Positions 19,691 through 22,770 of a DNA stretch of 64,000 bases are shown piece after piece (within the stretch, counting starts at the first letter, position 1; each line of letters opens with the position of its first letter). The notes under the pieces were generated by a model. That model ran no database searches. It had not been told where the DNA came from and saw only the letters and a list, made by a program, of their open reading frames with translations. This stretch comes from Natrinema sp. HArc-T2 (GTDB lineage: Archaea > Halobacteriota > Halobacteria > Halobacteriales > Natrialbaceae). The translations under genes were made by a program, and so were the position numbers. The stretch is taken from positions 62,001 through 126,000 of the forward strand of contig NZ_JBGUAZ010000006.1 of NCBI RefSeq assembly GCF_041821085.1, in the 5' to 3' direction.

Positions 19691-19945
19691 TTCGTCGGAA
19701 CGCCAACACTGGGGCGTGACGCGCTGTCGGACACACCGCCTTTGTCCTCGAGTATTCTACAGACGGTATAACCGAGTCTGGCCTGTATACGTCCGTAAAC
19801 ATGGCTCTCGGCAGGTATCGAAGATGCGTTCATCATCAGTCCGACTGTCGGTGGATCGATACAGCTGATGCTGATACGGGGGGTTTCGGTATCAGGTCGC
19901 GCAAAAAGTGGATCCGATCGGTGAACGGCGGGTCGTCGGAGATCC
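19691..19945. other. Gap between ncsA and the ftsZ2 tandem repeats
   Basis: No convincing gene is seen. It contains AT-rich words (GTATTCTACAGACGGTATAAC near 19750 and CTGTATACGTCCGTAAAC near 19785). A reading frame running through the tandem repeats is discounted because its repeat-derived composition explains it. Confidence 0.5.
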
Positions 19946-20053
19946 GGTGGTGTGTCAGATGCCGCGTGCGGCGGTGGTGTGTCAGATGCCGCGTGCGGCG
20001 GTGGTGTGTCAGATGCCGCGTGCGGCGGTGGTGTGTCAGATGCCGCGTGCGGG
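19946..20053. repeat. Four tandem 27-bp repeats abutting the ftsZ2 stop
   Basis: Units at 19946-19972, 19973-19999, 20000-20026 and 20027-20053 are identical except that the last ends GGG instead of GGC. Each holds the palindrome GCCGC-GT-GCGGC and the word GTGTGTCAGAT. The block ends exactly at the base before the ftsZ2 stop codon, so it forms the 3' untranslated start of that operon. Confidence 0.95.
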
Positions 20054-21241
20054 TTACCGGATCACGTCGACGCCGTTCTGTCGCTCGAGTTCGTTGCGAC
20101 CGCCGTCGCTGTGGGCACCGCGTCCGGTGCCACCGTCCTCGATGTGGTTACTCGCGTCGAAGTCGGTATCGCTGACGCCCTCGATGCTCTGACGGGATTT
20201 GTCGGCCTGTTTCTGGGTCGTCGGACCGAGCACCTGCGCGCTCTGGACGCCGGTCATGATCGCCATGACGCGTACTTTGCCCTTGTAGTTGTCCTGAATG
20301 CGGGCTCCCCAGATGACGTTCGCCGAGGCCTCGAGGCGTTCGGTGATGTTGTCGGCGATGCCTTCGGCCTCTTTGAGCGTGAGGTCGGGGCCGCCGGTGA
20401 TGTGGACGAGTCCGCCCGACGCGCCGCGGTAGTCGACGTCCAGCAGTGGGTGGTTCATTGCGTCCTTGACGACCTCGTCGGTCTTGTTCTTGTCCTGGGT
20501 CTCGCCGACCAGCATGACGGCGACGCCACCCTGGTTCATGATCGTGGACATGTCGGCGTAGTCCAAGTTGATCAGCGAGGGCTGGGTGATCGTCTCCGAG
20601 ATGCCTTTGACGGTTTCGGCGATGATCTGGTCCATCACCGAGAACGCCTTGCCGATCGGCAGGTTCGGGACGTAATCGAGCAACCGGTTGTTGTCGAGGA
20701 CGATGATCGAGTCGGCCTGCTCGCGCAGTTTCTCTAAGCCTTCTTCGGCTTTGACCGTACGGGCACGCTCGACGTTAAACGGAGTCGAGACCATGCCGAC
20801 GACGATCGCACCCTGCTCTTTGGCGATCTCCGAGACGACGGGGGCGGCACCCGTGCCGGTGCCACCACCCATCCCGGCGGTCACGAACACGAGGTCCGCG
20901 TCGCCGAGGACCTCTTTGATCGTGCCTTGGGCCATCTCGGTCGCACGCTCGCCCATCGACGGGTCGCCGCCAGCACCGAGCCCGTTCGTGAGCGACTTGC
21001 CGACGAGGATCTTCGTGTCGGCCTCGATCATCTTGAGGTGCTGTTTGTCCGTGTTGATCGCGACGGTGTCGGCGCCGTCGACGCCGATGTTGTACAGCCG
21101 GTTGATGGTGTTGTTACCCGCACCGCCACAGCCGACGATCACGATTCGGGGGTCCCCGAACTCGTCATCGTCCATCGAGACATCCATCTCTCGGGCCTCC
21201 TCTTCCGCGTTCTCTAAGGCGTCTTGGACGATATCCTGCAT
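20054..21241 (-). CDS. ftsZ2: Cell division GTPase FtsZ2
   Basis: A 395-residue tubulin homologue acting in mid-cell constriction in haloarchaea. GTP-binding elements are [16 protein letters not shown], the tubulin signature [12 protein letters not shown], and the T7-loop region [12 protein letters not shown]. The N-terminus [10 protein letters not shown] and the C-terminal [10 protein letters not shown] after an acidic linker (about 345-383) mark the FtsZ2 rather than the FtsZ1 paralogue. It starts two bases after the cdrS stop, hence one operon. Four 27-bp repeats follow the stop. Confidence 0.95.
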
Positions 21242-21243
21242 CG

Positions 21244-21423
21244 TTACACCTTCGCCCAGTTGCGTTTGCCGGACTGCTCGGTGGGGCCGTCGGCCTGTTC
21301 GTTGATCATCTCACGGACTGCCGACCGGATCGCCTCGCTCCGGTTCGGGAACTCGCCCGAGTCGACCAGTTGCTCTACTTCCTCGATCTGCTGCTTTGGG
21401 ATTCGCAGTGTCACACGCTCCAT
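21244..21423 (-). CDS. cdrS: CdrS, short ribbon-helix-helix regulator of ftsZ2
   Basis: A 59-residue protein. The ribbon strand [19 protein letters not shown] and the helices [19 protein letters not shown] form a complete RHH domain, with a short basic tail SGKRNWAKV. CdrS is known in Halobacterium and Haloferax to regulate ftsZ2 and cell division. The gene overlaps no other and is followed after two bases by ftsZ2. It is easily missed because of its length. The preceding region holds repeated GTAAGAC half-sites, its likely target or that of CdrL. Confidence 0.92.
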
Positions 21424-21442
21424 GGTTGTATTCCCCGTTGGG

Positions 21443-21614
21443 GTAAGACGGTCCCGCGCCCCTGTCAGACGCAGTGTGTCTTACATCCAAACCGACCGCA
21501 AGCGGGCGGTTTTCCGTCCTGTCGACGGCTGTAAGACAATCCGTCTTACGCAAATAAGTCGATGATTGTCTTGGACAATAAAGTTTTCGCCGAGATTTAT
21601 TTTCTGTGTCTTAC
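21443..21614. promoter_or_regulatory. Operator-like array before cdrS-ftsZ2
   Basis: The 196-bp gap between cdrL and cdrS holds five GTAAGAC/GTCTTAC half-sites: 21443-21449, 21478-21484, 21531-21537, 21543-21549 and 21608-21614. The third and fourth form the palindrome GTAAGAC-AATCC-GTCTTAC. A separate palindrome ATTGTC-TTG-GACAAT lies at 21565-21579. The candidate minus-strand TATA, CTTATTTGCG, is at 21549-21558, which places the main palindrome between TATA and transcript start. RHH dimers bind short inverted sites like these. Confidence 0.75.
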
Positions 21615-21619
21615 ACCGG

Positions 21620-22240
21620 TCAGTACTGCGTACTGTCCGACTCGAGAACGTCCGCCGCGGGCGTCCGACGACCGCAGCTGGGACAGAACGACCAGTCGGA
21701 CCGGATCTCGTCGCCACACTCACAGAACAATCGTCGCGACGCCTTTTCGCCGCAGTTGGGACAGTAGACGTGGTCGCCCTCAAGGTGGTCGCCACACTGG
21801 TTGCACTGCACACCGTCGTCACGTGGCTGGGACGCTGTCCGTTCGTGTGACTGATCTGGTCGCTGGTCGTCACCCGCTGTCTCACGGGTCCGGTCGACAT
21901 CGACCGCACTCAGTTCGTCCGACGCGTCTGTCGGACTGTCGAGCGAGATCGAGATGGTGACGTCCTGTGGTGATGGCGAATCGCGCGCTCGCGTGCTCGC
22001 GCGATCGAGTCCTAACTCCCGTAATCGCGTATCGAGTCGGTCGTCGACGCGATCACGCACGAGGTCGTCGATCGCACCCGCGTGCTCCCGTTCCGCATCG
22101 GAGCGTGTGTCACTCCCCCGAGTCACCTCGTCCTCGAGATATGCGCGAAGTGCCTCCCGCATGGCTTCGCTCTTGGACGCCTCGAGGGCCTCGAGTTGCG
22201 CGACGAGGTCGTCGTCGGCACGGAACGTGATCTTACTCAT
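21620..22240 (-). CDS. cdrL: CdrL-like regulator: RHH domain plus double zinc ribbon
   Basis: A 206-residue protein. The N-terminal ribbon-helix-helix spans about 1-45 (KITFRADDDLVAQLEALE, then SKSEAMREALRAYL). An acidic, low-complexity linker follows (about 50-135). The C-terminus has two zinc ribbons: CNQCGDHL with CPNCG, and CECGDE with CPSCG. The order cdrL-cdrS-ftsZ2 matches the known haloarchaeal cell-division locus, where CdrL controls cdrS-ftsZ2. TATATC on the opposite strand at about 22272 is its likely promoter element. Confidence 0.88.
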   Translation of the reverse strand: MSKITFRADDDLVAQLEALEASKSEAMREALRAYLEDEVTRGSDTRSDAEREHAGAIDDLVRDRVDDRLDTRLRELGLDRASTRARDSPSPQDVTISISLDSPTDASDELSAVDVDRTRETAGDDQRPDQSHERTASQPRDDGVQCNQCGDHLEGDHVYCPNCGEKASRRLFCECGDEIRSDWSFCPSCGRRTPAADVLESDSTQY

Positions 22241-22372: not shown

Positions 22373-22446
22373 CCGCCCTTAGCTCAGACTGGTAGAGCAG
22401 TCGACTGTAGATCGACTTGTCCCCCGTTCAAATCGGGGAGGGCGGA
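22373..22446 (+). tRNA. tRNA-Tyr (GUA)
   Basis: The 74-nt cloverleaf has acceptor CCGCCCT paired with AGGGCGG and discriminator A. The D arm carries AGCTCAGACTGGTAGAGC, the anticodon loop is CTGTAGA (anticodon GTA), and the T arm CCCCG-TTCAAAT-CGGGG is perfect. There is no intron and no encoded CCA. CCCTTATGTG about 40 bases upstream is a candidate TATA box. Confidence 0.95.
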
Positions 22447-22770
22447 CTTCCTTTCTCGTCGAAGTACAGCAGACACCGAATAGCCCGCCGTCTTGCGATT
22501 TTACCCCGCTCGAGACGACCGCAAATTCTGATTGGAACAAGGATCTTGTTGGGGGTCCGCGCCCTCTGGCGAATTCCATAGCAGAGACGTGGCACGTGAG
22601 TCGTCACTCTCCGGGCTGCCGTGGCCGTATGATACGGGTGACATCGTCTGACAGACACCTCCGTCGCATGTGAGCTGATTCCGTGGTCCATCACTGGCCG
22701 TCGTCCAATTGTGTTAATTTTATGTAGTATGATAGCTTTATATCGACGCTTAGCGTGTGGTCCTGCGCTC
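22447..22770. other. Gap between tRNA-Tyr and the HMA protein gene
   Basis: No gene is convincing. The right end is AT-rich (GTGTTAATTTTATG, then CTTTATATCG). TTTATAT at 22737-22743 lies 31 bases before the HMA ATG and is its likely TATA box. Confidence 0.5.

Follow-up and report, generated by a model that had tools for sequence, protein, structure and literature searches.

A conserved array of GTAAGAC heptads as the probable operator of the haloarchaeal cdrS-ftsZ2 division operon

Through which sequence might haloarchaea control the operon that encodes the division protein FtsZ2? We know of no named transcriptional regulators of the haloarchaeal division operon other than CdrS and CdrL. The promoter studied here belongs to Natrinema sp. 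HArc-T2 (GCF_041821085.1) and lies in a window of 64,000 nt, the whole stretch of DNA analysed (contig NZ_JBGUAZ010000006.1, positions 62,001-126,000 of the forward strand), whose numbering we use throughout. Three genes follow one another on its minus strand: cdrL (21620-22240), encoding a ribbon-helix-helix (RHH) domain with CdrL_M and a double zinc ribbon (Pfam); cdrS (21244-21423), encoding a 59-residue RHH regulator (Pfam RHH_1); and ftsZ2 (20054-21241), with Pfam Tubulin and FtsZ_C domains. From the cdrL stop (21620) to the cdrS start (21423) there is a spacer of 196 bp, the length given in an earlier note on this DNA, and both neighbours are RHH genes by Pfam, as that note had said. Hbt. 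salinarum has the same order, cdrL-cdrS-ftsZ2, around the promoter to which its CdrL binds (Darnell et al., 2020; PMC7439475), and the two promoters are orthologous. Directly beyond the ftsZ2 stop codon, at 19945-20052, stands a perfect 27-bp tandem repeat of four copies (CGGTGGTGTGTCAGATGCCGCGTGCGG), each unit holding a GC-rich inverted repeat; it might be a terminator, or mobile.

The spacer holds five copies of GTAAGAC, which we name heptads A to E in reading order toward cdrS; the earlier note had listed the same five, and all are exact. Their setting is given by a predicted TATA box (TTTATT, 21577-21582, minus strand), of which TTTAT is conserved in the alignment, and by the usual haloarchaeal TATA-to-start spacing of 27 bp, on which the predicted cdrS start site at about 21551-21553 (minus strand) rests. 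Heptad A (21608-21614, minus strand), exact GTAAGAC on the cdrS strand, is upstream of the TATA box and untranscribed from the cdrS promoter. Heptads B (21543-21549, minus strand; exact GTAAGAC), at the predicted start site, and C (21531-21537, plus strand; GTCTTAC on the cdrS strand) are the first and second arms of a core dyad. Heptad D (21478-21484, minus strand; exact GTAAGAC) falls inside the predicted leader, as does a related word, D' (GTCTGAC, 21464-21470, minus strand), which is of the CdrS type discussed below and sits in a leader hairpin. Heptad E (21443-21449, plus strand), again GTCTTAC on the cdrS strand, directly precedes a Shine-Dalgarno-like GGGGAA.

Could a short word have clustered here by accident? 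Across the window GTAAGAC is unremarkable, with seven copies against 4 expected, only two of them in the 63.8 kb outside the spacer. The genome as a whole contains 119 copies in 3.73 Mb, counting both strands, and about 0.006 would be expected in 196 bp; five observed copies correspond to a Poisson probability of ~1e-13, so the array is not due to chance. Positional conservation across the class, described below, already refutes chance clustering, whose probability we consider negligible. The B/C dyad, GTAAGAC-N5-GTCTTAC, is a true 19-bp palindrome (21531-21549), as previously noted, and the sole exact one in the genome. A second palindrome that had been proposed as part of the recognition element, ATTGTC-TTG-GACAAT (21565-21579), does exist and overlaps the TATA box; it is absent from every other Natrinema-type locus examined, including three with identical CdrS, and chance alone would supply about 0.4 palindromes with such 6-bp arms in a stretch of 196 bp. 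We therefore judged it a chance feature and dropped it from the operator.

Scanning other haloarchaeal cdrS promoters, the check that the earlier note had suggested, revealed that the heptads are conserved throughout the class; the lack of conservation by which that note would have been refuted did not occur. Each cdrS promoter of 80 named haloarchaeal loci has between three and five exact heptads, and their places are fixed; among 134 promoters counted, five were present in 67, four in 32 and three in 32. A blind genome-wide search of 194 haloarchaeal genomes with the pattern GTAAGACN{3,6}GTCTTAC found the dyad GTAAGAC-N3-6-GTCTTAC exactly once per genome in 188, while the reversed pattern, used as a control, matched in 2/194, and all 30 of the dyads that were opened lay ~105-135 bp before cdrS. 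The six genomes without an exact dyad were rejected as counter-examples: they all carry variants with an N2 spacer or one degenerate arm, and their other heptads are kept. Two haloarchaeal genomes, 97-98% complete (G230 and G348), gave no close cdrS match, which may reflect either a gap in the assembly or a true loss.

Conservation of the individual heptads was followed in 156 loci, 144 with an adjacent cdrL and 12 without. In the cdrL-containing loci the core dyad is exact in 135/144, heptad E in 132/144, heptad D in 103/144 and heptad A in 90/144 (139/144 when one mismatch is allowed), A being found either way round depending on the clade. In the remaining 12 loci the dyad and E are exact in all and D in two. 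B and C are mostly 11 bp apart (range 9-13 bp, that is, spacers of 2-6 bp, mostly 4) and C and D 52-57 bp; the spacings are thus constrained, and strict 11-bp helical phasing was not found. In most loci the centre of a TATA-like element is 29-35 bp ahead of heptad B, so B/C probably abuts the start site. A search of the open-licence PubMed Central literature gave neither a report of the motif nor a binding experiment on these heptads.

Which protein might read the array? CdrL is the first candidate: ChIP-seq in Hbt. salinarum found it bound at the cdrS-ftsZ2 promoter and nowhere else in the genome (PMC7439475), and a dyad present once per genome in 188/194 genomes has the uniqueness expected from this single reproducible site. 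That study reports a ChIP peak and gives no motif in its text, whereas here the element, its copy number, its architecture and its evolution are defined. GTAAGAC could accordingly be a code for CdrL alone, with CdrS limited to a different word, GTCWGAC; the once-per-genome dyad agrees with this, as do a CdrS ChIP list in which the cdrS promoter does not figure and the restriction of a GTC-to-GTA change to haloarchaea, the only clade with CdrL (see below). Genomes that lack CdrL argue the other way. CdrL was undetected in 14/391 haloarchaeal genomes, in six of which every candidate was scored. Eleven of their loci, representing seven genera, could be read and have no cdrL beside cdrS, and in all of them B, C and E are unchanged in every letter (the locus L268 of genome G353 was left out because the contig ends within or before its cdrL). 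The one divergent cdrL-less pair (G026/G311) is identical at 35/35 heptad bases against 82% elsewhere (p about 0.001). An operator of CdrL alone would be expected only where cdrL is present; since these 11 loci preserve the dyad perfectly, CdrL cannot be its sole reader, and we consider a CdrL-only code improbable. From these sequences it appears that something other than CdrL maintains the dyad in cdrL-less loci, CdrS being the obvious candidate. Heptad D was also considered as a CdrL-specific site and rejected, the association breaking down inside genera: g59 has D without cdrL, and g44 has cdrL without D. In Natrinema a tRNA-Tyr gene lies on the far side of cdrL (22373-22447), and in 9 of the 11 cdrL-less loci a tRNA-Tyr is found on the same (cdrL) side; deletion or integration at this gene might be the cause of repeated cdrL loss.

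CdrS itself has a related word. In Hfx. volcanii, CdrS ChIP gave 18 listed sites that include ftsZ1 and do not include the cdrS promoter, and the published CdrS motif comprises related symmetric heptads before ftsZ1 and other targets (Liao et al., 2021; PMC8406309). We rebuilt this code as GTCWGAC-N4-GTCWGAC: the pair is conserved in the ftsZ1 promoters of 30 other genera, directly upstream of the TATA box, and a search of a Haloferax-like genome and the Natrinema genome returned ftsZ1, hisB and a PALP-family gene, probably threonine ammonia-lyase. All three functions are on the published CdrS ChIP list, and these common targets suggest that our pair corresponds to the published motif and to the CdrS regulon code. 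Such a pair also precedes an MptE-like gene in both Natrinema and a Haloferax-like genome (L187, L190), a gene not named as such among the published CdrS targets. The cdrS promoter differs from these targets in carrying GTAAGAC, a variant of the CdrS code by one base per word that is confined to this promoter; it has a single GTCTGAC (D') and no GTCWGAC-N4-GTCWGAC pair. One GTAAGAC before ftsZ1 in the Natrinema genome (G000:C1:46933) was set aside as chance, being unconserved at that place in 30 genera.

The two proteins are similar where they would touch DNA. Both have an RHH_1 domain (Pfam) with a basic strand, which reads ERVTLR in 133/133 CdrS; in 125/125 CdrL it reads SKITFR, with minor variation. 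The two strands differ, R3 in CdrS versus K3 in CdrL, at one position that likely contacts a base, by analogy with NikR, which is among the PDB relatives of these proteins. Because the cdrS promoter is not on the CdrS ChIP list, reading of GTAAGAC by CdrS remains putative; its omission from that list could reflect occupancy by CdrL. The earlier proposal that GTAAGAC may be the recognition code of CdrL and CdrS thus stands in part: the word is found class-wide at cdrS, the only place where CdrL was bound (PMC7439475), but the general code of CdrS appears to be the GTCWGAC pair, and a version limited to CdrL is contradicted by the cdrL-less genomes that keep the dyad.

Promoters from outside the haloarchaea offer a view of a CdrS system without CdrL. 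We compared 19 cdrS-ftsZ loci of the same phylum, from methanogens and others (L202-L221); none of the 19 has an adjacent cdrL, and a search of 18 of the genomes for an RHH-bearing CdrL homologue gave only weak zinc-ribbon matches. All 19 promoters carry runs of as many as nine GTCWGAC-like words that follow one another at an exact 11-bp phase, and in 18/19 the arrays beat all 200 shuffles, a regularity that suggests CdrS dimers aligned on one face of the DNA. GTCATAC ranks third in frequency among the words of these arrays. Read on the other strand it is GTATGAC, so words of the GTA-W-GAC type already belong to the CdrS repertoire; GTATGAC is also found at the ftsZ1 sites of 3/31 genomes. The occurrence of GTAWGAC words in CdrS-only lineages and at ftsZ1 is a further point against a code for CdrL alone. 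What 19/19 non-haloarchaeal promoters and all haloarchaeal cdrS promoters examined have in common is a repeated GTMWGAC-type heptad, placed close to the TATA box or downstream of it. Only haloarchaea show the GTC-to-GTA change. In the simplest history compatible with these alignments, CdrS would have regulated its own gene through an ancient array, whose words were fixed as GTAAGAC in the haloarchaea with the arrival of CdrL.

Could the reader be neither CdrS nor CdrL but a third regulator of the haloarchaea, perhaps a further RHH protein like NikR? The NikR half-site is GTATGA (PMC7055735), close to GTAWGAC, and an array that outlives CdrL leaves room for another protein. The NikR operator, GTATGA-N16-TCATAC, resembles the cdrS array in having inverted half-sites of the RHH type whose letters are almost identical, GTA on the outer side and GAC on the inner; it differs in being a single site for a nickel-dependent tetramer of another regulator, with a 16-bp spacer that the cdrS array does not show, the B/C spacer being 2-6 bp and mostly 4. 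Moreover, the dyad is found only at cdrS, and occupancy of this promoter by CdrL is published; we regard a third regulator as very unlikely. Other RHH arrays, namely the omega heptads and the Arc and MetJ boxes, consist of short words about one helical turn apart, each bound by one dimer. The cdrS words, in contrast, are 9-65 bp apart with one close pair, and four of them fall in the predicted leader RNA.

Taken together, we favor, at a probability of roughly two in three, the explanation that the array is a DNA operator of the CdrS/CdrL division circuit, an inherited CdrS-type autoregulatory site shared with CdrL in haloarchaea. Besides the CdrS ChIP list and the cdrL-less genomes, two features weigh against it: firstly, a B-C spacing of 9-13 bp is unusual for rigidly cooperative dimers; secondly, all heptads but A fall within the predicted leader and keep their orientation there, which RNA structure would require as well.

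Heptads B to E might instead be conserved mainly for pairing in the transcript, a layer that the earlier note had not foreseen, where the leader would control translation, stability or premature termination. The predicted 5' leader of cdrS-ftsZ2 (21424-21551, minus strand) can form two helices of 9 bp each, B:E and C:D, and the D' hairpin; in Natrinema it folds with z = -3.86, B paired with E and C with D. Across 72 diverse leaders the mean z was -3.70, or -2.07 when the heptads were held fixed and the remainder shuffled, and mean pair probabilities were 0.86 for B:E, 0.89 for C:D and about 0.1 for B:C and D:E. The C-D interior alone gave a mean z of -1.92 (61 dissimilar sequences) versus -0.28 for random stretches from the same loci, and no comparable folding was found in the untranscribed A-B region. 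Bases beside B and beside E, separated by ~95 nt, change in a compensatory manner: the pair B+2:E-2 changes from G-C to A-T in 13/92 reduced loci, a result equalled in 0/5000 permutations. Support from phylogeny-aware covariation, simulated on an FtsZ2 tree, is moderate: for double changes p was 0.03-0.06 at each B:E position, and 0.02-0.06 when each B:E position was taken on its best measure; at two C:D positions p was 0.007-0.03. Three controls in the same simulation, B:C, D:E and outer C:D, gave no covariation. Published work adds that the cdrS-ftsZ2 operon is probably under post-transcriptional control (PMC8303175) and suggests that Hfx. volcanii makes additional short RNAs, produced by cleavage or by premature termination (PMC8406309).

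Several observations speak against pairing as the main cause of conservation. Heptad A lies upstream of the TATA box, in either orientation, and yet is the same word; the leader cannot explain it, and we therefore retain DNA recognition as the primary role. The core pairs lack covariation, because the heptads scarcely vary. RNAalifold on 26 Natrialbaceae leaders, in which D' (GTCTGAC) is nearly invariant, redrew the B:E, C:D and D' helices with little covariation, and over the C-D stem across the class it gave no alignable consensus. The start site is only predicted, and the ~250-nt cdrS RNA of Hfx. volcanii (PMC8406309) is shorter than a full leader plus reading frame. Local B:C and D:E hairpins were rejected as RNA structures, having no covariation and low probability, and Rfam gave no match above the gathering score in the cdrL-cdrS spacer. 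That B to E are kept chiefly for the RNA is, on this evidence, doubtful.

The fold is nonetheless a serious added possibility beside the DNA role. We consider it conceivable, as a tentative proposal, that the heptads are read twice, as RHH operators on the DNA and as strands of the B:E and C:D helices in the leader RNA; B:C plus D:E would then be an exclusive alternative fold, and an operator joined to a folded-leader switch of this kind would be unlike any Rfam family.

The favored explanation, a shared operator of CdrS and CdrL, would work as follows. One RHH dimer would land on each GTAAGAC heptad. With A just upstream of the TATA box and B/C over the start site, bound dimers would block the cdrS-ftsZ2 promoter, probably resulting in negative autoregulation or repression. 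The site would descend from a CdrS autoregulatory array of GTCWGAC words at 11-bp phase, as still found in methanogens; fixation of GTAAGAC would make the cdrS promoter distinct from the regulon code of CdrS, so that the newcomer CdrL could act at this promoter alone in the genome. Where CdrL has been lost, CdrS probably still reads the array, and the leader fold may modulate expression.

A once-per-genome operator together with a separate CdrS regulon code would make the division circuit of haloarchaea testable base by base. Methanogens have GTCWGAC arrays where haloarchaea have GTAAGAC, a shift that suggests an autoregulatory site which became specialised when a related regulator joined it. 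If true, the leader fold could explain why mRNA level and translation are reported not to match for cdrS-ftsZ2.
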